Shown: positions 26,833 to 53,169 of the stretch, one piece after another
How positions within the stretch are numbered: position 1 is the stretch's first letter
Layout of the letters: every line of letters starts with the position of its first letter
Origin: Kingdonia uniflora
Lineage: Eukaryota; Streptophyta; Magnoliopsida; Ranunculales; Circaeasteraceae
Assembly: GCA_014058105.1 (NCBI GenBank)
Contig: JACGCM010002885.1
Span: 868,001-932,000 of the forward strand
Length of the DNA: 64,000 nucleotides
Reading direction: 5' to 3'
The notes under the pieces: generated by a model
What the model was told of the DNA's origin: nothing
The model's input: the letters and a program-made list of their open reading frames with translations, nothing else
Databases searched by the model: none
Program-made: the position numbers and the translations under genes

Positions 26833-27699
26833 TGCAAATTTCCACCTGTTTTGAAGATGATTCCACTCGGAGATGTGGAGGCTAAGACTAGGGTTTGGGT
26901 CATGTGTGGTGCAGTTTTTGAACTTTTCAGTAAGCTCACTATCCTAATGACCTTTTCTGTCTATATCCATAACTCTGTTGTAGGGATGGGAGGGGTTTCT
27001 TGGTGGTGACGGTGGAAGAATATCCATGAAAATGGAAATGAGGAGTATGGCTTAGAAGGCTAGATAAACAGGTAAGAGTTTGTATAGGTTCTGTGAAAAA
27101 AACGGGTTTAGAGAGAGAGAGAGTACCAGAGAAGGAGAAAGTCTTAGTGGGCGAGATATCACCTCAGCTAAAACCTAGGAGGGCCGAACATGGAGGTTGG
27201 TGTGTGTTTTTGGCTGTTAGGGTGGTAGCTCTGAAACTGTCGGTGGATTTTCATGGTGATTTCATGCAGGGGAGAGGGTTGGAGAGAGGAGAGAGGAGAG
27301 ATGAGTTTGGTTCTTATTTTTCCTGACAAGCTAATTCTTTGGAGGAACAAAGTTCACAAAATGTGTAAGGCATATACTGCTTTTACAAAAAAATAAATTT
27401 GTCAGACACGTACTTGTGGGTGAACCCGGATGGCCTAATCGCATTTATCTCTGGTTTGATCATCATCCATTTAATTCCATAAACAATATAAGTTCAGAAC
27501 TGGACCTTTTTTTTAAAGCAAAGCTAATATAAATTAAAATAAAACAGCCCTAGGGCTGGGCATAATTGAGTTTACAAGGATGCACCCCTGGCTGGAAGAA
27601 AGTGTGCCGAATAATTACAACGACGATCAACATAATCGAAAATAAAGTCATGAAAACGGTTGGCGAGTGCACGAATATCTGGGGCTAAAGTGAGGACGC

Positions 27700-30600
27700 C
27701 CTATGATAAGTCCTCTGGTCTCGCTCTGAATACGTGCACAAGACGCTGACAGTCGGTCAGAAAGAGCCTGTTAAGTCCTAGTCTGTGAGCTGCTTCCATA
27801 CCGCGAATCACTGAGGCCGCCTCAGCTTCTTCGGGGTCGGTAGTCATACCCTACACAGCACACAAAGTTCAAATGAGTTTTAATAGCAAAACCAGTTCCA
27901 CTTGGCCTGTCTATTTTTTTCCAAGAGGCGTCCACGAAAATGACGTGCCATCCTTCTCTAGTTCGGGGAGTGATCCTAAGGGGTTTAGGAGTGGCGGTGA
28001 TCATCCTGTTATTGGGAATGAGGAGAAGTTTAGCCCGCTTGAGGGCCTCCCACGTGTGCGGCTTCTTATGCTCGAAGATAAGCTCGTTTCTGCTGATCCT
28101 GATGATATACATGATAGAGCTAATGGTGCTACAGAACCGAGGGAGAGTGGTATTACCCCCTTTCAGGGTAAAGCAAGATTGGATGATCTTGCGAACTGAG
28201 TCCGAATATTGCCAGCTCCGAAAATCCAGGGCCAGGTCAGAGTCATACTAGACGTCATGATTTATTGGGTAGAAAAAGAGGGCGTGTGTTGTGGTTTCTT
28301 CATCCACTCCGCATCTAGGACATATGGGATCCCAGTCTCCTTCTCCATGCCAAAGGTTTGCTTTAGTAGGGATGTCATTTTGGATGGCTTTCTAGAGGAA
28401 GAACTGAATGTGGAAAGGCAAAATCATGGACTAAATGAGCTCCCAAGTAGGGCCTTCTGGAGCGACCGAGGTCTTAATTCGGTCCTCCCGATTCTGGTCA
28501 AAAATAGAATAATTGTGCACAAATTTTACTATGAGGATACCGTTCTTTTCCTGCTTCCAGCGGAGGGCGTCCTTTGCGGGGTGCCGGCTAAGCGGGATGG
28601 ATAAAATGAGGTTGGCAATGTCCTTATGGAAAAGGGAGTGGATAAGTTGAGCTTTCCATGTTCGTCTCGCAGGCCAAATAAGATAGGCGATCCGGGTAAT
28701 AGTACGAAAGAGAGGGGCAGGCCCGGCTGGTCGACCAAATCTAATGCCTGGAATCCAGGGTTCGAGCCAGCAATCCATACTCTCGCCATCACCAATATGC
28801 CAACAGAGTTCCGGCCAGATTCGGTTTCGAGCTTTCAGGATACCTTTCTAGATCCATGAGTTTTGTGCCTGAGCCGTTGCAAGCATAGGGGAGTCCTTTG
28901 GAGTATACTTTCGGGTCAAGTTGTAATCCCAGAGTTTGTTCGGCTCTTTGATGAGACGCCAGAAGAGCTTGGCCATCAGGGCTTGGTTATGGTGGGTGGC
29001 TGCACGTATTCTCAGCCCCCCGAATCGGGATGGGCGACAGATCTGCTTCTATTTAATAAGTTGGGATTTGGTTTTTCCCTCCTTATTCGTGCCCTATAGG
29101 AACCTGGCGTTAAAGGAGTCAAGTTTATTGCAAATTTTGATGGGGAAGGTGAATATGGACATTTAGAAAGAAGGAATTGTTGAGTTAACAACTTTTATGA
29201 GGGTAAGCCTTCCGGCTTGGGAAAGATTTTTGGTTTTCCATCCCTCGATCTTGCTAGAGACCCTAGCAATGATGTCTTGAAAATTTAGGCTCTTCGATCT
29301 ATCGAAGGTCAGGGGTGCTCCAAGATATTTGTCTCCCGTCGCGCCTTTTTTGATGCAGAAAAGGTTCTGGATAAATTTGTGGTACCTATGGTGGCAGTTC
29401 TTACTAATGAGGATACAAGATTTATCATAATTTATCTCCTGCCCCGAGACCTGCTTAAAAGTATTGAGGGCATCTTTAAGGTTTTCTGCTTCTTCGAGGT
29501 TTGCCCGGTAAAAAATGAAACTGTTGTCGGCGAAGAGGAAATGGGAAATGGGTGTACTTCCTCTGGCCGTCTTGATACCGTGAAGCTCGCCTTTGAGCTA
29601 TTTTTGGAGGATGATGCGGGAAAGGATCTCGGAGCAGATAAGGAAGAGAGAAGGGGAGAGCGGGTCGCCTTAGCGGAGGCCCCGGCTTCAGGAAGCCGAA
29701 GGGGGTCCCGTTGATGTTAAAGGAGAGAGCAGTTGTAGAGATGCATTGCTTAATCCATTCACACCATTTAGCTCAGAAACCCATGCTCTTCATGGTGTCG
29801 TCGAGGAAGCTCTATTCCACTCGATCAAAGGCTTTGCTAAGGTCCAGTTTAACCGCCATGCAACTCGAGGTGCCTTCGTTTTAGAGCACCAAGAAGTTCC
29901 TGAGCCATAATGATGTTGTCAAAAATCTGTCTGCCAGGGATGAAGGCGTTCTGAGCTGGAGAAATGATTTTGCAAAAAAGAGCTCGGAGCCGTGCGGCCA
30001 AAATTTTGGTAATCAACCTCAGCTTGACGTTACACATGTTGACGGGTCTGTAGTGTTCTGGGGTTTCAAGGTTTTTTTTTCTTGTGAATGAGAGTGATGT
30101 TGGTGTGGTGAACTCCTGGAGGAGGTTGCCTAATTGGAAGAAAGCGATGGTGGCCTTGAGGAGGTCATGTTTTACGGTATCTCAAGATTTTTGGTAGAAA
30201 AGCAGGGTAAATCTATCTAGCCCGGCCGTTTTATGCGTATTCATGAAGAACAGGGCTTCTTTGAGCTCTTCTATGGAAGGTTCTCGAGTGAGCTGAGAAT
30301 TATCATCGTCCGTAATGAGCTTGTCCATAATACCGAGATCTTGGATGGAAATAGGGGGTTGGCCGGGAGTAAAAAGATCCTTATAGAATTGCACGAAGGT
30401 GCCTCCAATGTCCTTGCGGTCATGCCCCCAGGTTTTGTCGAGCTGACGAATCTGCTTAATCGTATTCTGTCTGCGCCGACAAACGGTAGAGAGATGGAAG
30501 AATTTAGTGTTGCGGTCCCCTTTCTTAAGCCAAAACTCTCGAGATTTGACGCGCCAGATAGCCTCCCCTTGCTTAAGCATTCTATTAAGTTGTTGTTGGA

Positions 30601-31619
30601 AGTCTTGCTCTTTTTTAATAGTGTCAGTGGTAGGGGACGCTTTTTGGATGTCGTTGATTTGATCCCGGAGTCGTTGGATATTGATGGGATTGTAGTTGAA
30701 CTCCTCTTTGTTCCACGCAATGAGATCTTTTTTGATTTGTCGAAGTTTTTTACAGAGGCGCAGCTGTCTAGAGCCCGTCTGGGTTGTTGTCCAGGCTGTG
30801 CGGATGATGTTTTTGCATTGATCGTGCTTCAGCCAGGCAGACTAAAAATAGAATTGTTTAGGGAGAGTGGGCCGGTCAGTGTTGGTGTTCAGGATGATAG
30901 GCCCATGGTCCGATCCGATAATTGGGAGATTGCGGATGGTGGCGTCCGGGAAGGTAGTGTGCCAGGGAACGGAGACCAGGGCTCGATCGAGCCGCTGCTT
31001 AGTTAAGTTGGTACCTTGTCTTTTGTTCGATAATGTGAAAGGCACTCAAGAGTATCCCAGGTCAATCATCGAGGTGTCAAAGATGAATTCCTCCAGAGGG
31101 TTTGGAACCGAGCTGTCGAACGGGATTCTACCAAATTTTTGTTCCTTGCAGGTAATACAATTTAGGTTGCCTAAAATAATCCAAGGAATAGTGAGAGAGC
31201 GTGCCAACTGAGAAATGAACCTCCAATAAGCGCTTCTATGCTGAGTGTCCGGGGGGCCGTAAGTGAAAGAGCAAAGCTAAGGGGTCGGCGCTGCGTCCGG
31301 GGTTTGGAGGGGAGTTTGAGATTGGATCAGCGCATCGATACCGTTGGGGGAGGAGGAGAGGATAGTGAGGTCATGAGGTCAATGTTGTGACTTCAGGCTA
31401 ACCAGAGGCCCCCAGGCCCCCAGCGTGTTGCTGGATGGTGTCAAGTGAGTGGGTGTGAGGAAGGCCCAGTTGATTGAGCTTGAGGAGAGTGTTAGGGTTC
31501 GCAGATTTAGTTTCAGACAAGAAAATGATGTCCGGATGGTATTTATGGTTGTGGACAAGAAGCTCCCTTAGGGTGGACCTTTTAGCGGTCCCCCTATAAT
31601 TCTAGGATAGGACAATCAT
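27700..31619 (-). pseudogene. LINE B: ORF2 (EN, RT, RNase H), decayed
   Basis: The endonuclease start at 31619 (MIVLSYNYRGTAKRSTLREL) is the cognate of copy A. EN, RT and RNase H blocks follow in broken frames: LDRALVSVPW and SDHGPIIL near 30900, NTHKTAGLDRFTLLFYQK near 30200, FIPGRQIFDNIIMAQ near 29930, and RNase H with FVDASWKKIDRPSGTGF near 27900. The RT active site near 29530 reads FADN rather than FADD, so even a repaired frame would lack one catalytic Asp. Confidence 0.85.
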
Positions 31620-31639
31620 TGGCAACCGAGGGCCGTTGT

Positions 31640-34202
31640 CGGTTCCGCTTCCTTTGTTTGGATATTGGGAATTTTTGTAGTAGCTGCGGTGGTCTGCCGT
31701 TTTCTGTTAAGGGGGGTATGAGTTGTTTGTGAGTTAGTTAGTAATTTAGTGAAGGCTTTGGTTGTGTGTTGGTTAGTCTGGTAAAGCAGGTTCCGTGCGA
31801 AGGAAATAAAGTTCCTTCTACTTGTTGCCTTCCCTCTGGGAGATCCCCCCTTAGGGTGTGGGCCCCGCTTTGCTCCTCTACCATCTCCCTGGGCATTGTA
31901 CTTTCCCCAGATACTTCTGAGCCATGCACATATGCCCTTGGGAGATGGGTAGGGTTCGGCTTGTGGTTTCTGAGTGTGCATGGGCATTATGTGGTGAGGG
32001 GCCTTTCCCGGTGTGGTGTGTGCGTTTATAATGTCTTTGTGAGCATCAAGATTCTTTTTAATACACTGTTTATGTTGCCTTTTCGTGTTTATATTACAAA
32101 GTTTACGATAAGAGTTGTTGTGATGTATGTGATGTATAAGAGGTCCATGTTTATTTTAATGTCGCCTTTTGTCAAAGTGCGGTTCAACATTGTATGTGCT
32201 CGGGGGCGACACGTATATAGAAGTTCATGCCCGAGCCCAGTTTGATGTGGGTGTGTGGGTTTTGTGAGTAATAAAACATGCATACCTTGGCGGGACGCTC
32301 TCAAAATGGTTGCGGGTACGTTTGTTTGTTTTCTCAAAATGAGACGTGTGTGAATCGCTTGTATGCTCCATGCTTTGTTCGAAAATGTCCTCGCTAGCTA
32401 GTGTTTGCTATGTATCGCTTTCTGTGGTAGAATATCCGAGTTGAAGGGGTTCAGTATCATCGAGGGAGGCCGAGGGTGTGCAATGAACAGTGATGGCATG
32501 GGAGGGTTGAATGAGATCCAAAGCAAGGTGAGGAAATGAATAGTGTGAGAATAAAGTGTGTTGGGCCGAGTGTTTTTTGGCGGAGGAGAGGGGCTGTGAG
32601 TAAGATCTATGATGGCCGGGACAGATGGGCCGGGGATCAAGGTTGTTGCAGGTGGGCTTAATTCTTGGTCAAAGGCCAAACCTAGGGGTGAAAGTCTGGG
32701 TAGCCCAACTGCAGGTGGGCCTAAGAGAAGTTGTTGGCTTGGTGTCGAAAGTCCCGGGACATCTGAGGTCCAGGTCCAGCGTTGGGGCAGTGTTATCCCG
32801 ACGAAATTCTAACGGTTCTCTTGCGAGAGACTTTATGAGTTGCAGTGATTGACTTGTGGGTCCCTTTTGTACTTTGTCATAAAACTGTCTCGGCGAGCAG
32901 ATTGTGTACGTGTGGAAGCTTCCCAGATTTTTGGTTTTTCGTGCTGTACGTACTTTGCATGCAAGTGGCTGTATTTGCCCTGGAGAGAGGTGACGAAGGA
33001 CCGTTGGTATGGTGCATGTTGTTGTCCGGGTTAAAATCTTTCTGCCTGAGCTCCGTGACCGTAGCCTTGTGAGAGAACGACCCAGTCTGTCGAATGGTGT
33101 AGCGTGTCTATTGTATGACCATTGTGAAAGTTGTGCCATAACTTTTTATACGATAGTCCCGACGCTCTCATTGTCGTGGTTAGGTCGGTACAACGGTAAC
33201 ACTGCCTGAGCTGCCGGCTGGTAAACTGGGTTCTCGGGTTCGACTTGGTCGTAGGTGCCTTCCCGAGCATGTCCACCTGTAGAGAGATTGGGATTACTAT
33301 GTGAAAATTTGGGTGGATTAACCTGAATATTGCGTCCAAATATGGGGTTCTATGATATTGAGCCGTTTCCGTTCACGTTGAATGTTGCCCAAAATAGTGC
33401 ATTGGGCTAGGAGTGAGCAATAATGCCGCATTGAGGACAAAACCCCGTATTTGATGGATAGTTTAGTGACTCCGTACCCACTGGGTCGGTGAATGGGAAG
33501 GGATAGAACAAGCTGTTTGTCGGTAAAAATGTTCACTTGAAGTCACACAAAACTTTCTTTGTGGAGGTCCGAATTGCGCGGGTTGAAATCATCCTTGATG
33601 AACTCGCCGAGCTTATTTCCTATCATGCGGAACATCTCTATTGAGCAAACATAACGGTAGTGTTGGAAAATACAATATGATTTGTTTTTCCTTTAAGTTT
33701 GAATGGTGAAACTAAGTGGTTTTAGTCCCCCAGAATCACAACTCTCCTATATAAGTAAAACAAACACTTACCTGGTTGTAATGAGTGTGAGAGTTGGTGG
33801 GTCACACGCGCATGTGCTGCCCATGTGCAAGCTAGCTTAGGTCCATGGGCTACCCATGGGCTTGCTCGACCTAGGAAGTTGGAGAATCGAGAAACCGAAT
33901 ATGTTCACCGGAGGCTTAGTTAGTATAATTTTCTAGTCGTTTTGGTTCGTGAACTTCGCCGTGAAAACTTTGGTGTCTTGTTCGAGCGAGAGCTGTGGTA
34001 TGGTGGGGATAATCTTTGCCCATTCCCTTTTGATCCCTTCAGTGATCACATGGTCCTTTAGGGTGGGGATATAGACTTAGACGCCATAGCGTATTGCCAT
34101 TCTCGTTGAAGAGCTGTCCATGCAGAGTGGGTCGTGTGTGGATATGTTACTGAATAGTTCCGATAGCTCTTTTTCCTTGGCTGCAATGTCTTCCTCGTTC
34201 AT
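31640..34202 (-). pseudogene. LINE B: ORF1, decayed and interrupted
   Basis: The ATG at 34202 begins MNEEDIAAKEKELSELFSN. The DUF4283-like part continues with DHVITEGIKREWAKIIPTIP and PVNIFGFSILQLP, is cut at about 33880 by foreign sequence, and resumes below 33660 with EMFRMIGNKLGEFIKDDFNP. A zinc-knuckle-like region lies near 33420. The Ser/Pro-rich C-terminal half extends to about 31640 in several frames. Confidence 0.75.
33660..33880. mobile_element. Probable solo LTR or short LTR-derived insert
   Basis: The segment starting TGTTGGAAAATACAATATG interrupts the LINE B ORF1 and replaces about 25 conserved codons. TGTTGGAAAA is a usual LTR start, and the insert has a TATATAAG box-like sequence. 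The other end and a TSD are not clear. A short palindromic CCATGGGCTACCCATGGG lies near its right side (about 33852-33869). Confidence 0.4.
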
Positions 34203-35399: not shown

Positions 35400-35597
35400 C
35401 ATAATAATTCATTGACTTGGGCTAAACTAAAATTGTTTAGTTTAAAGATTGTATCTCTAAGCATTGCTTTATCACTTGTATGGCTTTTAAAAAAGTGCTT
35501 AAAACAAGACAAACTCCTTAAATGGGGTACTGTCCAGTACTCTACCTGTGTGTTGTGTGGGGTGTCTAATGAAAATGAAGAACACCTATTTTTTGAA
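35400..35597 (+). pseudogene. Host LINE-type zf-RVT fragment, piece 1
   Basis: Codes on the plus strand for the zf-RVT module near the end of plant LINE ORF2: LLKWGTVQYSTCVLCGVSNE then NEEHLFFE. The last codons, TTTTTTGAA, are the left TSD of MULE-1. The next codons (TGC ACT TAT TCT) continue in frame at 46179, beyond the insertion. This fixes the insertion point exactly. Confidence 0.88.
35589..35597. repeat. MULE-1 target-site duplication, left
   Basis: TTTTTTGAA, identical to 46170-46178. The 9-bp length is the Mutator superfamily hallmark. Confidence 0.93.
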
Positions 35598-35790
35598 GGG
35601 CGACGATTCCCCAACACTCTCTTTATGTTACACTCTTTGCTACACTCTCTCCTCCCCACTCAATCCTTCAACTCACCTGCCCACTCAGCTCTCCCTCTCT
35701 CCCAGGTGGCCAAACAAAAAATACAAATGCAAAAAAAAAAAACTCTCTCCACTCAACTCACTCTCACTCGCCGAACTCACTCACTCACTC
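35598..35790 (+). repeat. MULE-1 left terminal inverted repeat
   Basis: About 190 bp, rich in CACTCTC/ACTCACTC. Its reverse complement matches the right end through CACTCTCT, CTCACCTGCCCACTCAGCTC, the short A tract and CTCCACTCAACTCACTC. CT microsatellite expansion follows to about 35905. Confidence 0.88.
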
Positions 35791-35835
35791 AGTTGCTCTC
35801 TCTCTCTCTCTCGCCGAACTCACTCACTCACTTAG

Positions 35836-35871
<36 letters not shown>

Positions 35872-36159
35872 ACTCAGTCGCTCTCTCTCTCTCTCTCCAC
35901 TGAGCTCACTCAGTCACCGTAGTACCTTTGTCGAATTCACGGTCAACAACGTACTTTCGCTGTCATAATTAGGCATAATCCCATTTATAATTCCCCCCAA
36001 TTTGTATAAAAATTATGAAATGATAAAATTAAAATTCAAAAATTTCACGCGCGAAATGCCGTTACGCCTTTTTGTAACTGTTTCTTTGACGAAATTGGAC
36101 ATAAATTTCCCCGAAATTTGACATGTACACACAAAATCGACAAATGTACCACGGAATGT

Positions 36160-36395
36160 GGTATATTTGTATGAAGAATTGTCGAATTTTGAAGTATTCA
36201 ACAAAAATATGTCGAATATCTATCAAAATTAGATAATTAATTGTCGAATTTATTGAAATTTGACAATTAATTGTCGAATTAATAAAAATACGACATTTTT
36301 TTTCCGAATTGAAATACATGCGACAATTAATTGTCGAATTTCAATGAATTCGACAATTATTTGTCAAACTTTAGTGCATTTGACAATTTTTGAAC
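36160..36395. repeat. Palindrome cluster 1 (5' of PMD gene)
   Basis: Copies of CGACAATTAATTGTCG and variants begin at 36261, 36291, 36321, 36351 and 36381, an exact 30-bp period, with weaker copies upstream to 36180. They lie just upstream of the PMD-OTU gene start at 36422, where the promoter or 5' UTR should be. Confidence 0.92.
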
Positions 36396-37018
36396 CGACG
36401 TTCTATTGGAATTTTTACAGCATGCCACCAAAGGGTAGAGGCAAGTTACCCACAACGATAGGGAGGAAGATTGTACCAACGGCCTCTCTAAGAAAGAGGC
36501 TCAATGAGGAGCGAGACGATCCATCGCATCCGAAATATAATAACCCACCGCGGGTTCCTGCGAAAAGAAGAAAAACCCGTTCGGCTAGGGTACCATTGAG
36601 GGATTCCTCAATAAGTGGCAGTCTCCCACGTGTGTCAGTCACACCTGAAGAGGAGTCTAGTAGTACCTCCGATTCCCAAGGAGAGTCTGCAGAAGACTTT
36701 AGGGGAGAAGACGCTGGTACACCTAAAACCCAATCTAGTACGGATTGAGTCCCTTATGCAAAAGACAAAGATCTTCCATCTACAAAAGTTCAACAGGAAG
36801 AAAATTTTCATAACCCTACCGTAGAACAACAAAGAACTGCAACAACAAAAGAAGTTCTCCCTGAAAGAAACTCAAAACAAGAAGCTGGGGAATATTGCCC
36901 AAGGGACCCTTTTCTTTTGACGAGCTTTGCGACCCACCGCGCCAAAGCTCTAGTTCTTGGACAGGTACACAGGACAAACCAATCTCATCAACTTTTTCTC
37001 TTATATGAAATTCTTAAA

Positions 37019-37112
37019 AATTGTCAAATTCCAAGACAATTAATTGTCGAATTATTGAACATTCGACAATTAATTGTCGAATTATTGAACATTCATATGA
37101 ATTCAACAATTT
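37019..37112. repeat. Palindrome cluster 2 (PMD-OTU intron 1)
   Basis: GACAATTAATTGTC at 37035 and 37065 (30 bp apart), each followed by GAATTATTGAACATT, plus a degenerate copy at 37105. They lie wholly inside intron 1. Confidence 0.92.
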
Positions 37113-38161
37113 CTATTGTACTTTTTCTTTGTGACAATGACACATGGGTTTCTATTTTACTTACAGGACCTAGGCTGTCTGCGTGTCTATCACCACAACC
37201 CTTCGTGGGAGCTTGGGAAAGAGATCGAAAGAGTTCAAAACATTGTGAATGTTTGGGGTTTGGGCAGGATTGGAGCCATCTTCTACAAGCACTACAACTC
37301 TGCGCTGATTACAGCCTTCGCTGAGCGGTGGCATCCAAAGACCAACAGTTTTCACTTCAAGTGGGAGGAGATGACTATCACCTTGGAGGATGTGTCCAGG
37401 TTGATTGGGCTGAGAGTTGACGGCGACCTCACTATCGTGAAGGGGGCGTGGGGCGCTCTCGCTGTTAAAGAAATGTGGAGGAAATGTATGTATCTGCCTG
37501 ATAGCGTTTACCCAGATTTGAAAGTTGGGGGCCAGGGAATATCTCTTTCCCTGAAGAAGATAGCCAAATTCTTTACTGGGAAGGTTGGGACAAATGCCCA
37601 CGACAGCGCATCTGCTTCCTCTATCAGGTTGTCTTCCCGTATGGTTGGGAAAGCCTATGTGCTCTACGTTCTTGGTTCTTTTATGTTCCCTACCAAGAAA
37701 GGGACAAATGTATTAGTAAAGTATTTTAGCTTCTTTCAGGACCAGCACGTAAGTAAACCATGGTCATGGGGGGCTGCGACATTGGCACACCTCTACTACA
37801 GTTTAGGTGCTTCATCAAGGGTCAATGCAAAGGGGCTTGCGTGCTGTACTACATTGCTAGAGGTCAGTTTGAAGTTTATTTGTTTTTGTTTATGTTGTTT
37901 ACTTTATTTGTGGGCGATTGAAGTTGAAGTTTATTTATTTTGACAGTCGTAGATCTTTGAACATTTCCCGAAGCTGCCTGGTATTCCAACACGCAATGAA
38001 TCCGGTGCTCTTGAGTTCTGTACAAGGTGGTGTTAGAGTAAGACGACCAGCGTGCAAACTGGTTCAGTTGCCTTGGCAATATTTTGAGAAGCTTTGGATA
38101 GTTACAAGGTTGAAGATGTAAGTTGAAACCTTGTTTTCTTGTTTTCTTAATTTTTTCAATA

Positions 38162-38358
38162 AGTGTCGACTTCGGCGAAAAATTCTTTTTTTGTCGACAG
38201 CATATAATTCGGCAATAAATTGTCTTGTTAGATAAGTCGACAATTTATTATCGAATTCATACAATTCGACACTAAATTATCGAATTGTCTTGTCGAATTT
38301 TGAAAGAGTTCGGCAATTTATTGTCGAACTCTTTCAAAATTCGACAATTTATTTCACT
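38162..38358. repeat. Palindrome cluster 3 (intron 3)
   Basis: Copies start near 38209, 38237, 38266, 38310 and 38341. A larger palindrome of about 50 bp (38291-38343) joins two units: the spacer GAAAGAGTT on one side reappears inverted as AACTCTTTC on the other. All are inside intron 3. Confidence 0.9.
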
Positions 38359-39120
38359 GTATTTATTTAACTACCTAATATATCTGCAATTTATGTTTTA
38401 GGTCGTCTTTGACCCGTACGTAGAGAAGATGGAGGACAAACATATGTTCGAAGAAGTGGCTAGCTTCACAGGTCTCCTATGTAGTCCTGAACATAAAAAA
38501 CCATATTATCCTGATCGAGTACAGCGACAGTTCAACCGAAGGTAACCTGTGCCTCGGGATCCTGCTTTTGTTGAAAACAACGGCTTGCATTTTGGTGATA
38601 AAACAGACCCATATAATCCGAAGTATGATTGGGGGGATTTATTCTCCGAAGAGAAATGGAGGGACTCTATCACTTTGATGAGGGGTAGGAAAGTCCACGA
38701 TGGGATGCCCGTTTGTAGTGAAGGATACTTTGAATGGTTCAATTCAGTTTCCTTCACCAAACTTTGCCCAGATGTTGTTAATCTTGGCGAAGATGCGGAT
38801 TACGACGGAGTGAGGGTATTGGGGGCAAGCAGTGGTGTTTCCCAGAGGGAGGATGTGAGTATTTGATTGTACTTATAGTATTTTAGGTATCTTTCATCAT
38901 TCTTCTAATAATTCGGCTCTACTATTTTATAGGTTGAGGTGCTGCAGAGCCAAAATGAAGGTGGTGGAGGACCGACTGAGGTGGTAGAGGACCCGGCGAG
39001 GTCAGTTTTGGTGCAAGCATTTGAAGCGAAGGTGTGCACTCTAACAAACTTTCTTCAATACATATATTGAGAAGTGAATTGCCTCTAAATAACTTTGTTA
39101 CTCGCTTGTTACTATTACAG

Positions 39121-39468
39121 ACAAGTGAATATGCATTTTTGATGGAGGTAACCGGAAGAATGCAAGCAGACATTCAAGCGGAGAATCTTGCCAACTCCAT
39201 CTGTGAGAAGAAATTGAATGAAAAGGTATTTGTACATGTTTTAGCATTCCCTTCCTTACGCGGTTTTTATAGATGTCATAGGCATTCCTAGTCACTTTCT
39301 TAAATATAAGTTTCTTATCAGACATTGAAGTGTGAAACGAATAAGAAATTGCTAAAAGATCTGACATTGGAGTGCGAGTCGACTAAGAAAATACTAGAAG
39401 ATCAGAGATTGGAGTGCGAATCTAATAAGAAATTAGTAAAAGATCTGTGTATGCAACTTGCAGCACAA
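39121..39468 (+). other. Coiled-coil exons with threefold repeat
   Basis: Exon 6 (35 codons) and exon 7 (49 codons) of the PMD-OTU gene. Exon 7 contains three near-copies of a segment of about 16 residues: LKCETNKKLLKDLT, LECESTKKILEDQR and LECESNKKLVKDLC. The heptad-like leucines and charges indicate a coiled coil, so the protein may dimerise. The repeat shows recent internal duplication. Confidence 0.8.
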
Positions 39469-39660
39469 GTAAGTACTATTACTCCCAAAAAGAAACAGTT
39501 ATTATTTCCTGACACATGTACTCATTTATGATTAATAACAGGTGAATAAGAATGAAACATTGGGCAAGATTAATGACAAGTTGATGGAAGAAGTTTATGT
39601 GCACCAAATAGAAGTACCCTTACCTGTGAGTATGAAATATTACAAGAAACTCAACTATCA

Positions 39661-39702
39661 AAATCTATTCGAATAGAAATCTTCTTATTCGAATAGAAAC
39701 TC
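39661..39702. repeat. Pair of TATTCGAATA palindromes (intron 8)
   Basis: CTATTCGAATAG and TTATTCGAATAG have TTCGAA at 39668 and 39688, 20 bp apart. The same palindrome with a 20-bp period occurs at 62526-62701, outside MULE-1. Confidence 0.8.
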
Positions 39703-40185
39703 ATGATTATCTTTTTGTTCCATCTTATATATAGAAATAGGAGAAATATAGTACACTAGAGCTATATGTCCTTTATGATTTATTTCATAATTATCTTTTT
39801 CTGGCATTTGTGTAGCTAAACATGGTTCCACACTTAGAGGAGAACGTCGGAGAAGCTCAAATGTGGAAACAGAAGTACGAAGAGTTACATGCAAAATTTG
39901 AAGAAACTCAAAAGAGATTGAGTGAGATAGATAGGAATGTAAGTTGATTTAGGCAATGGTCATTGACGAGACATTTTGTATTCATGTACATTGTTGCGGT
40001 TGTTTAATTTTATGCTTGAGGATAATTTTTATGAAACATTGAAGTAATCCCATGTAGACATTGATACTAAATTGTTTATAGAGATTATCCCTATATATAT
40101 GCCGTTTGGAATCTTGATCAAACTAAAGTTCTCCTATGTAACACTTAATTGTAATTGTAAAATTAGTAGTGTGGAGACATTATTG

Positions 40186-40390
40186 TCGAAGTCGACAATA
40201 ATGTGTCTATTCAATATTTATTTGACGAAATCTATTGTCGTAATTGTCGAATTCGACAATAATTTGTCGAATTGTTAGAAAATTCGACAATAAATTGTCG
40301 AATTAATAGTTTTCGACAATAAATTGTCGAATGCATTAACTTTCTACAAAAAATTGTCGAAATAGTCTGAATTCGACAATTTTTTCCATG
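40186..40390. repeat. Palindrome cluster 4 (intron 9)
   Basis: TCGACAATAAATTGTCGA-type units begin at 40253, 40284, 40313, 40342 (degenerate) and 40373, with spacings of 31, 29, 29 and 31. Extra half-sites precede them from 40186. Spacer sequences differ between units. The cluster sits in intron 9 of the PMD-OTU gene. Confidence 0.93.
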
Positions 40391-40725
40391 AACCAGGTAT
40401 GCTAATTTTGTCTGTTTATGTATAAACCCATGATTTTTAGGAGAAGGTTATTCATGACAGGTGGCACGCCAAATACATCCACAAAACCGAAAAGCTGGTA
40501 AGTTGTACTGCGACTTCTAATTTGTTTTCACCAAATACTAATCATGTGGATCTAAATGACCCTAACAAACCAAATTGACGATATCCGAAGACATGAGATT
40601 CAACCTTGAAACTGATAATAATGAATGGGTGTATGCACCTTTGTCATCCTACGTTTATATTTTTGTTTTAAATTACTTTTGATTTAAATTTTAACTACGC
40701 TATTTTGGTCGTGTTTGCGTTATAG

Positions 40726-41634
40726 GGAGTGTGGCGTGTGACACTGAAAGACGCTATTGAAGGAGGGGATTTTGAAGATCCTGAAGACCCGACATACGAG
40801 GAACTAGGTATACAGTTTACTAAACTCTTAACAATTGCTCAAGAGGGTCCAAAGGGGGAATACAAAGATTACATAATCTTATCGGAAAGGGGGGAGTATC
40901 AAGAAATGATCGATTCAAGGTTGAAGAAGATTGATCATAAAACTAATCTAAGACAGAGTTTGTTTCAAACATTTAATTGTTTCCAACTGGATATACGTGA
41001 TGTTAAAAGAGATGGTAACACAACATTTAGGGTTACTGCGTCATATGCGTATCAGAGCCAAATAAAGTTCTCGAATATAAAGGTTTCCTTGTGTACCTTG
41101 ATGACGAAGAAATCTTCTTATTGGAAGGGCATTTTCAGTCAGAGGTTAGACGTAGCTTACACTGATTTGGGAGAGAGAAGGTACGAAACTTTGCTACGGG
41201 CCTTTAAGTTCGATGTTGTGTTTGTGGAATATTTGTATATGGGCTATTTGTTAGCAACATATTACGAGAAGGTGGCCATCTTCATCAGCAACAAGGAGGC
41301 CTTAACGTTCCTACCTATGTTTTGGCCGAAAGCAAACAACAAGATTACCAAAGAGAGGAGGTTTGAAAATATTCTTGTTGATAGTACGAAGTATTGGTGG
41401 GTTGGAATGACATCCGATGAAAACTTTGTGAAATTGAAGACCAAGTACCAATCACCTATTCCTCCGCTTTCTACACTGTGGTGGGCGCATGTGAAATTGG
41501 ATATTCCAGATGCTTTTGTGAAGCAATGTGTAAAGAACTATTTTGACGCGCCAAACAAAGCTTGGATGAAGTTGATGAAAGACAACAATGTTAACTCACT
41601 GGATTACAGCTTAAATGATTTGAACCTTTGTTGA
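40726..41634 (+). other. OTU-like domain exon lacking catalytic Cys and His
   Basis: Last exon, 302 codons, fully open. It aligns in pattern with OTU-type cysteine proteases found in plant Mutator-like elements: QLDIRDVKRDGNTTFRV, where the family has DGNC-x-FR, and GMTSDENFVKL, where the family usually has an EHF/EHW-type His. The would-be nucleophile is Thr (codon ACA, 41020-41022) and the His position is Asn (AAC, 41422-41424). Changing Cys to Thr needs at least two substitutions. The fold may be kept as a non-enzymatic ubiquitin-binding or structural module. Assignment is from memory of the family pattern, so moderate. Confidence 0.6.
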
Positions 41635-41693
41635 ATGTTGTATACATCTATGCAATTTTTATAGCTTGTGAAGAGAAGTACCTGATACAGAGA

Positions 41694-41960
41694 AATTGTC
41701 AATTTTATTATTAATTCGACAATAAATTGTTTATTTTATAGTTCTTCGACAATTAATTGTCGAGTTCCTTATTTTCGACAATAAATTGTCGAGTTAAAGA
41801 AACTGTTCGGCAATTAATTGTCGAGTTTACAGAAATGTGACAATTAATTGTCGAATTACTGTAAACTGGATAGATACTTTCATAGAAATTGTCGCACCAT
41901 AAACTTATTCGACAATAAATACAAAACTAAAATTTGGACAATAAATACACAACTCAAATT
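41694..41960. repeat. Palindrome cluster 5 (between the two MULE-1 genes)
   Basis: Units start at 41716, 41746, 41775, 41807 and 41838 (spacings 30, 29, 32, 31), followed by half-sites to about 41960. The cluster lies between the 3' end of the PMD-OTU gene (41634) and that of the transposase (42234). Confidence 0.93.
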
Positions 41961-42233
41961 TGGACAATTCAACAACAATAGTTACGATAACCACAATAAT
42001 CCCATAATTCGACAACAATAGCATGAACAACAACATTCTAACAGTAATAAAAGTCCCAATGATGTCTGTAATCTGCAATCATATCATCTTCAGCAACTTC
42101 CAACACCATGGTCGTCTAACTATGGCTCGACCCCATCCTGATTTGAAGCACCTAATTATGAAACAGGGGAAATAAATTAGTAATATTCAACATATGTTAT
42201 CGTAGAAGTTGTTGGGAAGTACTTATTTATAAT

Positions 42234-44665
42234 TTAACGATACTCACCAGCTTCTGCCTTTTGAAACAATAATTTCAATTGTGGGCAAGTGCGTTTGTCG
42301 TGGATGCCAACGACTCCACAAGCTTTGCATACCCTCTTCTTCTTCGCCACAGCTATCTCCATTCCGCCCTTCCATCTGCCACCTTTTTTGTAATCATCTT
42401 TTGCACGGCCTTTGGTTTGTACCACAAGAGGATCCAAAATAGGAGTTGAAGGCATCATAGGAGTTGAAGACATTATTGTCTCAGTTAATGGAGTCGACAT
42501 TAAAGGATCCGCGTCTGAGAGTTAAGTCAGAGATGCATCGTACGCATCTAGATGTGTCTCAAGCTCGTCCAGCCTTGAAATGGCATATTCGAAGTTTGCT
42601 TTATTATTTGATGCCCTCTCAAATAGGTTTGCTGCGCGAAGTGAAAGGTGGTTATGGCATAACGGTTTCCTCAAGTTATCTCTATCTAAGAAACTCTCGT
42701 CGTACGATCGCGAATATTTGTTTGCACCAATCTTTCACCTTGGTAGAATGAATGCATCTGGGATTTGGAGAACATCATATTTGGAGAAAATCTTGAAGAG
42801 ATGACAACATGGCAGACCTACATATTCGAACAACTTGCATTCACAATGGCCTGTCAGACTAGCCAAGTCTATCTTCAACTCAAAACTTTCAGGCGGTCCA
42901 CTATGTGACTTCACAAATATTTCTCGAACGTTTTCGTTTACGCTCTTTTCTATTGCTATGAACCGCACAATTTGATTGAATTGGTCTTCAACTTTATGAA
43001 AAATCTTCCTCGTATAAATCTTTGCTGCATGTTTTAGTAGAGCCTGATGAGGTCCGACTTGCCGATATCTATGTTCGGATTGGAAGTCCTCTTCTTTCTC
43101 TCTTTTAAATGTCTCTAATAGAGTTGTTGCATATTTTGTCACGAAACTGTATAGACCAGTTGAAGGAAGTAGCTAACCATTGAAGAAATTGTTTGTTGAC
43201 TCACTTCTTCCAGTAGTACTCATGCCAACATAGAAAGTACCTCTATTCCACAAAGGTATCCATCTTTCTCTGATATTAAATAAGCCTTGCATCAGATTGT
43301 TGTCATCAAGATTATGTTTCTTCATAAGCTCGACCTACCTTCTATCGAAGTCTATAAGATCGTATGTGTTGTGGATAATTGAATCTATATCACTCTTGAA
43401 TATAGATGGATCTCGATAAACATAACCAATCTTTTCAGGGTACTTGTGTATGATGTGCCATAGGCAGAGCCAATGCCTGGTATTTGGGAAGACCTTCGAC
43501 AAAATACAAATATTAGATAACACATATGGATTGTCGAGTATATGATTTTTGACAATTAATTTATGTTCGACTTCGTCAAATTCGACAAAATATTATCGAA
43601 TTCAGATACTTCGACAATAAATTGTCGAGTTTGTTCATAAGATTCGACAAAATATTGTTGAATTTAAAAACCTCGACAATAAATTGTCGACACAATATAA
43701 AATTCGACAATTTATTGTCGAGTTTGTTCATTTCGACAATTATGTAAGCTACAATTGTTGCCGAATTTTATACTGAGACTAACCTTGGGGATGGCGGCAC
43801 CCATTGCACATCTTGGTCAGTAATAATAGCCGTCAGGTAGTTATTGCTCATCGCATTTAGCCACGTATAGAATAACCAAGTAAAGGTGTTCTCTTGCTTA
43901 TTCCTCAACAAAGCACATCCAAGTTGAATTGTTTGGTAGTGGTTGTTTATTCCCGTAAATAGAGCGAATGACATCTTATAAACATTCGTCCTATACGTGG
44001 TGTCGAAAGTCACCACATCCCCAAAAGCCTCATATGCCATTCAAGATCGCCCATCTATCCAAAAAAAAAAAATTAAGTGCTCTGTCATCATCATCGAGTT
44101 GAATGTTAAAGTAGAACATAGGATCATCGACTTGTTTTTTCATGAACCAATCCAATGCAGCCTGCGCATCACCACTCGATATACGTTCCTTGTTAACTTT
44201 GGCTTTGTGGTTATAACAATCACGTTTGTTGAAGGTCTTGTCTGGGAATAAAGCAGGCACCTTGCTGACTGAGATATTGTGAAGCTCAAAAGTCTCTGTT
44301 AGGTTTTTTGCAGCTTCAGGGGAAAAATAATTAATCTTCATACGATGGTGGTTTCGTGGGGAGACAAGGTTGTGGTTATGAACATCTAAGAAACTCGTAA
44401 CAACATATTTCCTAAGATTTTTTCTCCAATTAATGTTCAAAGTCGTTTTACACCCGCATTGGTAAGAAGAACGCTTCTTCCCATATTGTTCACTTGAACT
44501 TGAAGTTTGGTTTTTCTTCGACAAACTGCTGCTCAAACAACAAAATGTTGCTCGTGTTATCTCCTCCGATCTTGGTCGTTTCTTGGAGTTGTGCTTCTTT
44601 GTCGAGAACCCTTTCGTCCATCCATATTTCTCATAGAATGAACTTACCTCATCCACTGTATCAAA
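42234..44665 (-). pseudogene. FAR1/MURA-type transposase of MULE-1
   Basis: Would cut and join the element. On the minus strand: a FAR1 DNA-binding N-terminus (about 44665-44040: VSSFYEKYGWTKGFSTKKHN, YVVTSFLDVHNHNLVSPRNH), the MULE catalytic core (GDVVTFDTTYRTN with Asp; AIITDQDVQW with Asp), then WLCLWHIIHKYPEKIG, GMSTTGRSESTNNFFNG, a SWIM finger (CECKLFEYVGLPCCHLF) and a C-terminal zinc knuckle (CKACGVVGIHDKRTC). An intron at about 43498-43782 holds palindrome cluster 6. Stops at the FAR1-core junction (near 44040), after IDFDRR (43335) and after NNFFNG (near 43170), plus a frame change, disable it. Confidence 0.88.
43526..43760. repeat. Palindrome cluster 6 (transposase intron)
   Basis: Units at 43582, 43611, 43644, 43673, 43704 and 43733 (spacings 29, 33, 29, 31, 29). 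The spacer GTTTGTTCAT occurs twice (43629 and 43721). The cluster is inside the transposase intron. Confidence 0.93.
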
Positions 44666-44996
44666 TACTTACCCTTCCTATGGTGTCTCCACAAACAAAG
44701 AATCGGCGGTACAATCAGGTGTTCTGGAACCCACACCCGTCGTAGGTTCATTGGCAGCCCTTGGTGGTGATTCATCTCCAATTACCCTTGACCAATCTAG
44801 TTGACATGAATCTTCCTTCTTATTATCCTGTCATATAGGAGGAATTATTGGATACAATTAATCAAAGACGAACAAATGGAATAAAAACTCACAGACAAGC
44901 ACCCACAAATGCAGAAGGAAGAAAACACTATTTTTCATAACAAAAACTCTGATTATATACGAATTATAAAAACTCTGATTTCATAACAAAAACACA

Positions 44997-45383
44997 TCAA
45001 TTTTCGCCTACATAATAGTTACAACCTAAACAGCCAGCAGGACAGGCTTTACCGTCCCTCACAGCGAGAACATCTTCTTCCCTCATGAACGTCTTGGCAC
45101 GTTTAAGCAGACTATCGACACGCTCTGGTGGCCACACAATATTGGTGTGCAACAGGCAATGGTACCTATAGTCCTCTTCCGACGCCTTTGCCTCTTCCTC
45201 GTTCATCCCCTCATAATTTGGCGCCACCGGTACCAGTGGCACAAAGTTAATGCATTTATCGGCCCAATACCGCCTGTACAATTCCCAATACTTGACATGC
45301 ATACGCCATTCATGACCTTCCTCACAGGATTGAGCCCTAGTCTTTACAATCTTATGAAAGTTAAGAAATAAGGGACCCTCAAG
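44997..45383 (-). CDS. Unassigned MULE-1 minus-strand frame
   Basis: Open frame with protein-like composition ending at 44997: HVKYWELYRRYWADKCIN, EEEAKASEEDYRYHCLLHTN and a Cys-rich end CPAGCLGCNYYVGEN. An in-frame TGA lies immediately upstream of about 45384, and the first ATG is internal. It is therefore either a spliced exon or a small separate gene. It lies upstream of the transposase on the same strand. I recognise no family. Confidence 0.4.
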   Translation of the reverse strand, partial: LEGPLFLNFHKIVKTRAQSCEEGHEWRMHVKYWELYRRYWADKCINFVPLVPVAPNYEGMNEEEAKASEEDYRYHCLLHTNIVWPPERVDSLLKRAKTFMREEDVLAVRDGKACPAGCLGCNYYVGEN

Positions 45384-45433
45384 CAATCACAACGGGCATT
45401 TATACGTTCAGCCAGAAAATACTATTGGCGGTT

Positions 45434-45650
45434 AAAAATTGTCGAATTTCATATTTCCTAGACAATTAATTGTCAAATTCTTATAAATTCAACAATTAAT
45501 TGTCGCCTATATCGAATTTGACAATTTATTGTCAAGGAAACTTGAATTCGATAATAAATTGTCGAATTCATACATAAATTCGACAATTTCTATCTCGATG
45601 AAATCTGGATTCGACAAATAATTGTTGAATCCAGATAAATGTCCAATAAA
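45434..45650. repeat. Palindrome cluster 7 (5' side of transposase strand)
   Basis: Units at 45461, 45491, 45520, 45550, 45582 and 45613 (spacings 30, 29, 30, 32, 31). Several carry point changes. The cluster mirrors cluster 1 in lying between a terminal repeat and the first minus-strand exon. Confidence 0.92.
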
Positions 45651-45974
45651 TAGCCAAATGTAGCACTAAAAATTGGGGGGAGGATACACCACTAACCTCT
45701 TCAATTTTTGTAGCAGTTATTGGTAGATTCGCCTCACGATTTCACTGAGCTGTATTCAAGCAAAATCAAGAACCTAGTTACCTCCGAGAAACCTAGTTTC
45801 TAGCAAATTCAATTGAATGATTAACCTCACGAAATACAGTTTCGACATGGTAAAAACAATGAGAGAGACTGAGAAAGCTTCGTACCTCAACGAGAAAGTA
45901 ATTCACTAGGAGATCGAGTGCCTGCAGCAAACGGCAGGATAGAAAACCCGCTGAAATTTGAATTTGAATCTTGC

Positions 45975-46169
45975 TGTACAAAGTGAGTGAAGAGACGAGT
46001 GAGTTGAGTGGAGAGAGACAGAGTTTTTTTTTTTTTTGCCACGTGGAAAAGAGAGAAAACTGAATGGGAGAGAGGGAGAGCTGAGTGGGCAGGTGAGTTG
46101 GCGAAATGAGTGGAGATGAGAGAGTGTAGGAGGTGTGTAACACAAAGAGATTGTAGGGGAATCCTCCCC
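45975..46169 (-). repeat. MULE-1 right terminal inverted repeat
   Basis: Reverse complement begins GGGGAGGATTCCCCTACA and follows the left repeat to its end. The right TSD TTTTTTGAA is at 46170-46178. Confidence 0.88.
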
Positions 46170-46178
46170 TTTTTTGAA

Positions 46179-46333
46179 TGCACTTATTCTTTGTTTATAT
46201 GGAAAGCTCTGCTCAAACTGCTAGGCTACAATAGAAATACAGGTAACTGGGATATGTCAACACTTTTAAGGTAAGGATGCCATAACAGGTATTAAAAAGT
46301 TAACTCTCAACTCTTTTTTCTATAATATTTTAA
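46179..46333 (+). pseudogene. Host LINE-type zf-RVT fragment, piece 2
   Basis: Continues the frame broken at 35597: CTYSLFIWKALLKLLGYNRN, then in broken frame KDAITGIKKLTLNSFFYNI. The fit to the end of a plant LINE zf-RVT module is good. It is cut at 46333 by the LTR element. Confidence 0.82.
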
Positions 46334-49289: not shown

Positions 49290-50159
49290 TTTTTTTTTTT
49301 AACGCAAAGCTGATATTTATTAACTAAACAAACCGCCCATGGTGGCGGCCAAGAATAAAGTTTACAAAAGTCTGAGCCTCAGAGGCCTCGGTACAAACAA
49401 AAGGGGGGGGGGGGGGGGGGGGGGGGGGAATTTGCACCCCTCGCAGCTAAGAAATGTACTTCAATATTACATGAACGGTGAACGAACTCAAAAATAAAAG
49501 TCTGAAATCTCGCTGCTAAAGCATACATGTCTGGCGCCCAAGTGAGCGCACCCTAGGAAAGGTCCTTTGAATGATCTCGAAAAGCTCGAACTAGGCGCTG
49601 GCAGTCTGTCAAAAGAATAATCCTATCAAGCCCCAGACTAAGCGCTGTTTCCATCCCCCTGATCACCGAGATGGCCTCTGCCTCTTCGGGGTCCGCTGCT
49701 CTCGTCGAAGAATTCCCTGCGCATACAATGGAATCCAAATGAGATTTAATAATAAAGCATGTACCCCCAATGATTTCAAATTTTTTCCAAGATGCGTCCA
49801 CATTGATTGTGTGCCAACCCTCTTTTGCTTGGATCGTAGCTGTCGGTTGAAGCTCCCGAATGGGCAGTGTGGGAGGCACAGTCCTAGGAATAAGGGTGGT
49901 GTAAAGAGTCGCTTTCTTAAGGCCGTTTGTGCCTCCCTTAATAGTGTAGCATCGCTGGATGATCTTACTCACAGAGTCTATGTAAACCCAGTTTCCGAAG
50001 TCAAGGGCGAGGTGCGATTTCCTCTAAATCTCTTGGGTGGCTTGGCATAAATAGAGTTTGTATCCCAATCGCTATATCCATGCCACAGGTTGAACTTTGT
50101 CGGGATGCCGTCTTGAATGGCTTTCCAGAGGAAGAGTTGGATTCTAAGCGCCATCTTCA

Positions 50160-52902
50160 TCTTCCAGATGGTCTCTCAAACGAAATCGTCGATGTTAGTG
50201 GGATTGCAGCCCAGATGCTCGCTATTATGCTCTCTAAGAGAGTAATAATGGACAGACTTAACTGTAAGAATGCCGTTATGCTCCTGCTTCCATCTGAGGA
50301 CATCCTTCCCCGGATAGCGACTGAGAGGGATGCAAGTGATGAGGTCCGCAATGTCTTTTTGGAACATGGTATGAATTAATGTCGTGTTCAAAGTTCTGCT
50401 ATTGTGGTTAATGAGGTCAGCTACTCTGGTAATGGGCCTAACTAGGGGAGCAGGTCCCGCCAGTCTCCCAAACCTGATGCTTGGGATCCAAGGTTCGAGC
50501 CATGGGTCCACACTTTCCCAGTTTCCAATGTGCCAGCACAGGTCGGGCCAAATACGGTTTTGCGCTTTCAAAATTCCTTTCCAAATCCATGAGTCCTAGC
50601 ATAGGCGGGACTTTCGGGGTATACTTAGCGATCAAGTTTTGGGCCCAAGGTTTTTCTGGTCTTTAATGATTCTCCAGAAAAGTTTAGCCAGCATGGCTTG
50701 GTTATGATGGGTGACTTTGCGGATTCCAAGTCCTCCGAATTTAGGCTGTTGGCAAATGCTGTTCAATTTAATAAGTTGGTTCTTAGTCCTGCCATTGCTA
50801 TTTGAGCCCCATAGGAATCTGGCATTCAGGGAGTCAAGCTTTTAGCAAATCTTCTGGGGGAAGGGGAAAACGGCCATCTGAAAAGATGGAATTGCCGAGT
50901 TAACAACTTTGATGAGAGTGAGTCATCCAGCTTGGGAGAGATTTTTGGCTTTCCATCCTTCAATTTTGCTAGAGACTCTGGAAATGATGTCTTGGAAGTT
51001 GAGACTTTTGGAGCGGTCAAGGTAAGGGGGGCGCCAAGGTACTTTCTCCTGAACTATCCTTCTTGATGTATAAGATATTTTGGATCAGCCTATGGTGCCG
51101 GTGATGGCAATTTTTGCTGAAGAGAATACACGATTTAGCAAAATTTACCTCTTGACCTGAAATTTGAGTAAAGGTACTAAGAGCGTCCTTGAGGGCGCCT
51201 GCCTCATCGAGGGTGGCCTTACAAAAAATGAAGTTGTCGTCCGCGAATAGGAGGTGGGAGATTGGGGTACTACCTCTGACAGTCTTAATGCCATGCAGCT
51301 TTCCTTGTTGTTCCTTCTGGAGGATGATGCGCGAGAGGACCTCCGAGAAAATGAGGAAGATGGAGGGTGAAAGGGGGTCTCCTTGTCTGAGCCCCCTCCC
51401 TGGTTTGAGCATTCCGTAAGGAGTGCCGTTTAAGTTAAAACTGAGCGCCGTGGTGGATATGCACTGCTGAATCCAGCCACACCACTTGTTATTGAAACCC
51501 AGCGCTTTAAGAGTGTCGTTGAGAAAGTGCCACTAAACTCTGTCAAAAGCTTTACTCAGATCGAGCTTGACTGCCATGCAGCTGAAGGCGCCTTTCTTCT
51601 TTCTTAGATTTGCCAAAACCTCCTGGGCCATAATGATATTATCAAAAATTTGCTTTCCAGGGATAAAAGCGTTCTGCGCGGGGGAGATAATCTTGTTGAG
51701 GAGGGGGTGAAGTCTAGACGCGAGGATTTTGCGATAATCTTGATTTTGACGTTACAGAGGCTGATAGGGCGAAAATGATCCGGGGTCTCTGGGATATTTT
51801 TTTTAGGGAAGAGAGTGATATTTGTTTGGTTGAATTCCTGAAGGAGGTTACCCGTTTGAAAGAAGGCATGGGTCGCGTTGTAAAGATCTTGTTTGACGGT
51901 GTCCCAAAACTTTTGGTAAAACAGTGAGGTGAACCCATCAGGTCCCGGAGCTTTATGATGGTTCATGTTAAACAAAGCTTCTCTGATCTCTTCCATGCAG
52001 GGGTCTCTGGTAAGGGTAATGTTCTCATCGTCCGTAATCACTTTTTCCATGATACCAAGATCTTGGACCTTCTGGGAAGGGTTGGAGGAAGTGAAAAAGT
52101 CTCTATAGAAATCAACAAAAATATCACCAATGTCTTTCCTGTCTTTCCCCCAGGTGCCGTCCTTCTTACGGATTTGCTTGATATCGTTGAATCTCCTCCG
52201 ACAGATGGTAGAAGTATGGAAAAATTTCGTGTTCCTATCGGCTTCCTTAAGCCAGAGCTCGCGTGACTTATCTCTTCAGGTAGCTTCCTCTTGTTCAAGA
52301 ATACGGTTAAGTTAGGCTTGCATCTCTTGCTCTTGCCTGGTGTTGTCATCAGAAGGGATCTTCTTCTGTCATTATCCAATCTGAGCCCTGAGGCTCTGAA
52401 TATTATTCTGGACGCAGTTGACTTCCCTCTTGTTCCAAGCAATGAGTTCCTTCTTTGTGTGCCTGAACTTTTTACACAGGCGAAGCTGGCGAGATCCAGT
52501 CTGCCCTTCGTTCTAGGTTTTTTTGATAATCTCGAGGCAATTTTCATGCTTTAGCCAAGCTAATTGGAAATGGAATTGCTTCGGGAGCGAGTGACTGGTC
52601 GGTTCCGTATTCAGGATGACGGGCCCGTGATCCGATCCGATGATGGGTAGGTTATGAATGGTGGCATCTGAAAAGGTGGTTCGCCAAGGGATAAAGACTA
52701 TTGCTCTGTCCAACCTCTGCTTTACCAGCTTGGCGCCTCTCCTCTTGTTTGACCAAGTGAATGGAACTCCAGAAGAACCCAAGTCCATCATGGAGGCCTT
52801 GAAAATGAACTCCCCCAGAGGGTTAGGGGTAGTGCCGTCGAAGGCAATTTTATCAAATTTTTTCTCTTTGCAGGTGATACTATTTAGGTCTCCGATAATC
52901 AT
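50160..52902 (-). pseudogene. LINE C: ORF2 (truncated EN and RT)
   Basis: EN from about 53120 lacks the N-terminal block and begins around the TYGPPDAQHRF region. The 129-codon piece at 52902-52513 includes VPFTWSNKRRGAKLVKQRLD and SDHGPVIL. RT pieces: MNHHKAPGPDGFTSLFYQKF (about 51960), LKPGRGLRQGDPLSPSIFLI (51412) and FADDN. Frame changes occur near 51500, 51720 and 52060, with TGA/TAG codons between. Confidence 0.85.
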
Positions 52903-53169
52903 CCAAGGTATCTTAACCGATCTGGCTAAGTCATTTATGGAGACCCAATAAGTGAAGCGGTGTTGCGCGTCAGGCGGGCCGTAGGTGAACGAACAGAGCC
53001 AAGGGGTCGGATCAGCACTAGGCGATTGGTTGGGCGCGTGCGATTGAATGAGCGCGTCGATACCATTAAGGGAGAAGGTGAGGATAGTCAGATCGATGGT
53101 ATTATTCCAGGCCAGGTGTCGGGCACAATCATTGATAACTAAGGGCCGGTGTCGGGCCCGCTTTCGTTG

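Follow-up and report, generated by a model that had tools for sequence, protein, structure and literature searches.

A Mutator-like element (MULE) of 10,572 bp occupies positions 35598..46169 of the 64,000-nucleotide stretch of Kingdonia uniflora (Ranunculales) DNA analysed here (the window), and its non-coding DNA carries seven clusters of a palindromic motif. The element contains two converging genes, one for an accessory protein with a plant mobile domain (PMD; gene A, plus strand) and one for a transposase (gene B, minus strand). By analogy with the VANC proteins of VANDAL MULEs and their targets, we consider it probable that the clusters are self-target arrays recognised by the PMD protein of this MULE.

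The palindrome arrays are real and far above chance. A longer unit consensus, AATTCGACAATWAATTGTCGAATT, was derived from a profile of the 28 units found at two or fewer mismatches. When mismatches to TCGACAATNNATTGTCGA were counted over 16 scored positions, the window held 8, 15, 28, 30 and 34 matches at up to 0, 1, 2, 3 and 4 mismatches, respectively. By comparison, 30 order-2 Markov simulations of the window gave means of 0.07 at up to two mismatches and 3.3 at up to four, and 100 order-4 simulations of positions 35900-46200 gave 0.21 and 4.2. Two of the 34 matches (8124 and 58261, each with four mismatches) lie outside the MULE, and within the window the motif density is confined to the element. 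We kept 31 units with a profile score of at least 12, eight of which are perfect over the 16 scored bases. Weaker matches in the MULE with scores of 8-12 (40061, 40172, 42910 and 45428) were dropped; 40172 is the sole four-mismatch match in the element left out of the 31 units, and 42910, the weakest, lies within the transposase coding sequence. Counted as half-sites with no more than one mismatch of eight, 84 occur in the MULE, 76 of them inside the seven clusters, compared with 41 in the remaining 53.4 kb. The recurrence of the palindrome noted in the original prediction therefore holds, and the unit starts listed there are correct to within 0-2 bp. In the series at 36261, 36291, 36321, 36351 and 36381, described as spaced by exactly 30 bp, 36291 and 36381 are degenerate (5 and 7 mismatches), and three sites listed as full units, 40373, 43733 and 45582, retain the left half-site alone.

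The clusters are found in the places originally claimed for them, namely the 5' flank of gene A (cluster 1, five units, 36198..36367), introns 1, 3 and 9 of gene A (cluster 2, two units, 37033..37080; cluster 3, four units, 38209..38327; cluster 4, five units, 40192..40360), the intergenic gap, towards which the 3' ends of genes A and B converge (cluster 5, five units, 41716..41854), the transposase intron (cluster 6, five units, 43582..43721) and the 5' flank of gene B (cluster 7, five units, 45459..45628); no strand is assigned to any of them. All 31 units lie clear of the modelled coding sequence. When the seven clusters were placed at random as rigid blocks, only 77 of 200,000 trials were exon-free, a probability that is approximate because gene B has only a rough coding model. 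The clusters thus avoid exons, as had been proposed. There are 14 non-coding segments in total, and seven of the eight that are at least 200 bp long hold a cluster (2-5 units each) as against none of the six shorter ones, the 200-bp line having been set post hoc with the segment lengths already seen. The long segment that is free of a cluster is intron 10 of gene A, of 228 bp. Three isolated half-sites with at most one mismatch do occur within the gene B coding sequence, at 42494, 44518 and 44598.

Gene A (36422..41634, plus strand) was modelled by spliced reading as 11 exons and 1128 codons. Exons 1-4 span 36422-36964, 37167-37862, 37947-38117 and 38402-38854; exons 5-8 span 38933-39031, 39121-39225, 39322-39468 and 39542-39625; and exons 9-11 span 39816-39938, 40441-40497 and 40726-41634. 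The protein contains a match to PF10536, the plant mobile domain (E=3.7e-32), and the domain is borne by exon 2 (37167..37862, plus strand; E=7.1e-32), while for the C-terminal exon (40726..41634, plus strand) Pfam gave no match above cut-off. In annotated Kingdonia relatives, parts of the gene A region 36422-41634 are read through. The annotated Kingdonia uniflora protein GIB67_010053 starts inside exon 4 of the model and shares its joins from there as far as exon 9 and exon 11, with exon 10 omitted; its identity to the window is 100% over both exon 11 (302/302) and exon 9 (41/41). Protein relatives were searched by words, and only candidates sharing most words were scored. Among 7,996 scored candidates the PMD region gave 27 significant matches, 24 to Kingdonia and 3 to Aristolochia proteins, and in the same type of search all 24 matches to the C-terminal region, among 1,567 scored candidates, were to Kingdonia. 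The PMD family is thus multicopy in Kingdonia, and two PMD subfamilies can be told apart by eye among the relatives P0001-P0008. The AlphaFold2 models were poor for both the PMD exon (mean pLDDT 38.0) and the C-terminal exon (35.9), and searches of solved structures, with best E values of 0.15 and 0.77, brought up no credible relative. As is usual for plant DNA, the PMD exon had no match among the viral contigs of IMG/VR or the plasmids of PLSDB.

It had originally been said that no described MULE feature resembled these arrays. This is incorrect, since VANC-target arrays of Arabidopsis VANDAL MULEs have been published. VANC21 binds YAGTATTAY, which in VANDAL21 is dense in introns and in the non-coding DNA between genes and at the termini, whereas VANC6-affected sequences carry a different motif, AGTTGTCC/AGTTGTAC; VANC targets are often tandem repeats, and VANC expression leads to methylation loss (Hosaka et al. 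2017, PMC5735166). Like VANDAL21 and VANDAL6, the Kingdonia element is a MULE with an extra gene besides the transposase, and has dense arrays of one motif in its non-coding DNA together with signs of local tandem repetition. Unlike them, its motif is a palindrome of 18-24 bp and not a sequence of 8-9 bp arrayed in one orientation, its accessory protein is a PMD protein and not a recognisable DUF1985/DUF287 protein, its terminal inverted repeats (TIRs) are clear, and for its arrays binding and demethylation are predictions. We compared the half-site AATTGTCG with the VANC6 motif AGTTGTCC, and their likeness, at 6 of 8 positions, was given no weight. Because DUF1985 was not found above cut-off in the sequences scanned and the TIRs are clear, we do not class the Kingdonia MULE as a VANDAL, but by analogy it may work like one.

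The link between PMD and MULEs has precedents. In Dupeyron et al. 2019 (PMC6446971), PMD, often antisense, is listed for many plant MULE groups; published PMD-bearing groups are 42 and 45-50, and half of the VANDAL group members carry PMD and/or a DUF. The Kingdonia element resembles such PMD-bearing plant MULEs (PMC6446971 and PMC5418596) in its 9-bp target-site duplication, its SWIM transposase and a PMD frame antisense to the transposase. It differs from the listed groups in that its combination of FAR1 and SWIM fits the plant row for group 36 (Jittery) in PMC6446971, where PMD is not named. A part for MULE-captured PMD in the anti-silencing of transposable elements was put forward as speculation by Ikeda et al. 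2017 (PMC5418596), and a PMD gene together with VANC-style arrays in one MULE gives that speculation a concrete DNA target. PMD proteins have also been tied to a DNA motif, in that loss of MAIN and MAIL1 affects genes with a common motif in their promoters (Nicolau et al. 2020, PMC7156037). No motif arrays in PMD MULEs were seen in the accessible parts of PMC6446971 and PMC5418596, and no PMD MULE with target arrays was found in print among the best matches listed from an open-access literature in which key papers are missing, which makes this a weak claim. An accessory protein tied to non-coding motifs is also described (PMC13317346) for KIU VANDALs with an Ulp1-bearing VANC; in contrast to these, no Ulp1 family was found in four scanned stretches of Kingdonia gene A (covering exons 1, 2 and 11 and part of exon 4).

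Taken together with the VANDAL comparison, these features lead us to infer the following mechanism. The arrays would serve as the MULE's own cis-recognition sites, and a protein encoded by the MULE, most likely the gene A PMD protein acting as a dimer or multimer, would recognise the half-site ATTGTCGA/TCGACAAT. Placed densely in most long non-coding gaps, the arrays would allow the protein to mark its own element over the full 10.5 kb and not other DNA. The likely outcome, by the VANC analogy, would be sequence-specific anti-silencing, in which DNA methylation and other silent marks are removed and both MULE genes become expressible.

Several observations weigh against recognition of the arrays by the PMD protein. 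The window copy of gene A has five in-frame stops, and this copy of the MULE is decayed. DUF1985 was not found above cut-off in the window PMD exon or in 19 aligned sequences; two of the 19 touched it, far below cut-off (best E=0.09), in one of these two, P0010, the DUF1985 match (E=0.14) overlaps the PMD match, and the window PMD exon itself gave the PMD match plus a sub-cut-off DUF7745 match only. The TIRs of the element are clear, unlike those of typical VANDALs, which are degenerate or missing, yet the published VANDAL group includes members with TIRs (PMC6446971). Among 98 candidates no protein translating the arrays was found at E<=10, and none of the array-encoded peptides looked for occurred in the 27 PMD-region relatives. 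Finally, the Arabidopsis genic PMD proteins MAIN and MAIL1 act in silencing and not in its relief (PMC5418596).

A second protein of the element that might bind the arrays is the transposase. Gene B (42237..44668, minus strand) encodes a FAR1 DNA-binding domain (PF03101, E=1.7e-15), a MULE transposase domain (PF10551) and a SWIM zinc finger (PF04434, E=5.6e-4, just above cut-off). The MULE domain is interrupted by an intron at about 43495-43786: profile positions 1-73 are matched before it (E=1.6e-17), and a sub-cut-off match to positions 80-99 follows it (E=0.0019). The coding model is a rough one of two blocks, 43787-44668 and 42237-43494, from which an open frame at 44997-45386 is excluded. 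A left half-site with one mismatch was also noticed at the acceptor end of the intron (43496-43503). The arrays could be binding sites for the FAR1 domain, used as internal sites at which the transposition complex assembles or in autoregulating expression. In Spm and other plant transposons the element's own protein does bind to subterminal repeats. However, transposase sites are expected at the ends of an element, whereas here the arrays also fill introns and the intergenic gap and none of the 31 units lies inside the TIRs, the first unit starting 600 bp inside the left end and the last ending 541 bp inside the right end. The FHY3/FAR1 site, CACGCGC, is moreover unlike the palindrome. The FAR1 domain might bind the motif, but we consider the PMD protein the likelier binder, and we regard transposase sites as an unlikely explanation of the arrays.

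The same sites could instead be bound by a protein of the host, for example a homeodomain-leucine-zipper factor, and act as an enhancer or barrier. The homeodomain-leucine-zipper site CAATNATTG resembles the core CAAT-WA-ATTG of the palindrome, the central CAATWAATTG having the look of a homeodomain-type dyad, and promoter-proximal and intronic positions could suit enhancers. Conservation, however, reaches TCGA on both sides, past that dyad, with 1.2-1.8 bits at each of C2, G3, C5, G14, C16 and G17. In addition, one cluster sits between converging 3' ends, and the other 53 kb of the window offers nothing better than the two four-mismatch matches. We accordingly give host-factor sites a low probability.

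The internal organisation of the arrays bears on whether they are protein-binding sites at all. Single steps between units span 28-33 bp, as originally described, with a mean of 30.05 (SD 1.2, n=20) once four larger within-cluster gaps (44, 60, 61 and 63) are excluded. The two half-sites of a palindrome stand 10 bp apart, and those on either side of a spacer mostly 19-23 bp; consecutive spacings gave r=-0.36 over 12 pairs, too few for use. The 16 array slots without a kept unit, comprising interior gaps and the slots just past cluster ends, have best matches of 5-10 mismatches, 13 of them at no more than 8, compared with a mean best match of 9.3 (5th percentile 7) at 1,500 random non-coding places. 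Decayed units and half-sites are thus also present. Mean pairwise identity is 0.84 for the motif, a figure inflated since the units were selected by motif similarity, and 0.355 for the spacer cores, against 0.319 (SD 0.013) for shuffled cores; the spacers are thus almost unrelated, with a slight likeness retained.

Neutral minisatellites, spread by chance among the introns of the MULE, would account for some of these features. The central dinucleotides are cluster-specific (permutation P=0.011), which suggests local tandem duplication or amplification, as in VANC targets, and the slight excess likeness of the spacer cores points the same way, as do spacers that look alike by eye (43611 and 43704; 37033 and 37063). 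At no more than one mismatch, six of the seven clusters open with the right half ATTGTCGA and six of seven close with the left half TCGACAAT; this edge pattern, which is post hoc and weaker at up to two mismatches (5/7 starts, 4/7 ends), suggests that the spacer may form the centre of the amplified unit. Neutral repeats should nevertheless diverge evenly, whereas the motif stands at 84% identity and the spacer core at 36% (units chosen by motif), and one motif is common to seven separate loci. Minisatellites spread without function are on this evidence very unlikely.

The arms of the palindrome vary independently. Over the 31 units there are 20 deviations in the left arm only, 17 in the right arm only and 3 in both, where 2.5 would be expected, and two of the three two-sided cases keep complementarity. 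This argues for a protein-binding site and against a hairpin, since a hairpin predicts compensatory change and a protein dimer site does not. The original suggestion of arrayed protein-binding sites is therefore supported, both by the independent arms and by the conservation of the motif (84%) relative to the spacer cores (36%; shuffled 32%). The alternative offered with it, a self-spreading hairpin, or more generally hairpin-forming RNA or DNA structures acting as a small-RNA source or in splicing, is highly improbable given 37 one-sided deviations and no excess of compensatory ones, even though every unit is a perfect or near palindrome and the arrays can pair mutually as longer inverted repeats. 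Deviations are also commoner at CG positions (18/124) than at other C or G (5/62) or at A/T (20/310), which would fit a possible decay of methylated cytosines.

The proposal that the sites lie on one face of the DNA fared less well. Sasaki and colleagues reportedly found in 2022 that motif sequence, density and helical periodicity matter. Within-cluster distances do not support a helical phase of 10.5 bp per turn (mean cosine -0.02). They are coherent only near 10.1 bp (0.70), and a one-face arrangement would hold just for a helical repeat close to that value.

If the arrays are targets of the PMD protein, then sequence-specific anti-silencing would extend to a different protein family in Ranunculales, and the system might offer an epigenome-editing module. 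A broader reading, which we put forward tentatively and think rather less likely to be right than wrong, is that MULE-borne PMD proteins, together with self-target arrays of their own, make up a second class of factors for sequence-specific anti-silencing, which either arose independently of VANC or goes back to a deep ancestor common to both. Such an ancestor, a PMD/DUF7745/DUF1985 superfamily, is hinted at by weak overlapping profile matches. Were this so, the presence of PMD in so many plant MULEs would be explained, and MAIN and MAIL1, which serve the host in silencing, would be related to the anti-silencers of transposons.

The element has the features by which a MULE is recognised, that is, a target-site duplication of about 9 bp, a MULE transposase domain with a SWIM zinc finger, and TIRs. 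The duplication, TTTTTTGAA, is a perfect 9-bp pair on the plus strand (35589..35597 and 46170..46178) that brackets 35598..46169. The left TIR spans 35598..35715 (plus strand) and the right TIR 46051..46169 (minus strand), with approximate inner ends taken from a longer gapped local alignment; the arms 35640-35704 and 46065-46129 are 65 nt long and 91% complementary. When the flanks are rejoined without the MULE one frame remains open, CVLCGVSNENEEHLFFECTYSLFIWK, which by inspection of its letters looks to us like the end of a non-LTR (long terminal repeat) retrotransposon protein. The target of insertion appears to have been this older coding-like frame around 35589-35597 / 46170-46178.

Elsewhere in the window, a tblastn search with PMD relatives revealed a second, separate PMD-like remnant at 949-1524, near the left edge, with four matches of up to 47% identity (best E 9e-5). 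The segments 20264-31673 and 49424-53098 are about 70-78% alike and contain several long minus-strand frames; they are perhaps related retrotransposons. Finally, positions 2832-3866 hold a tandem array whose copies, about 88-92% alike, repeat every 175 bp or so.

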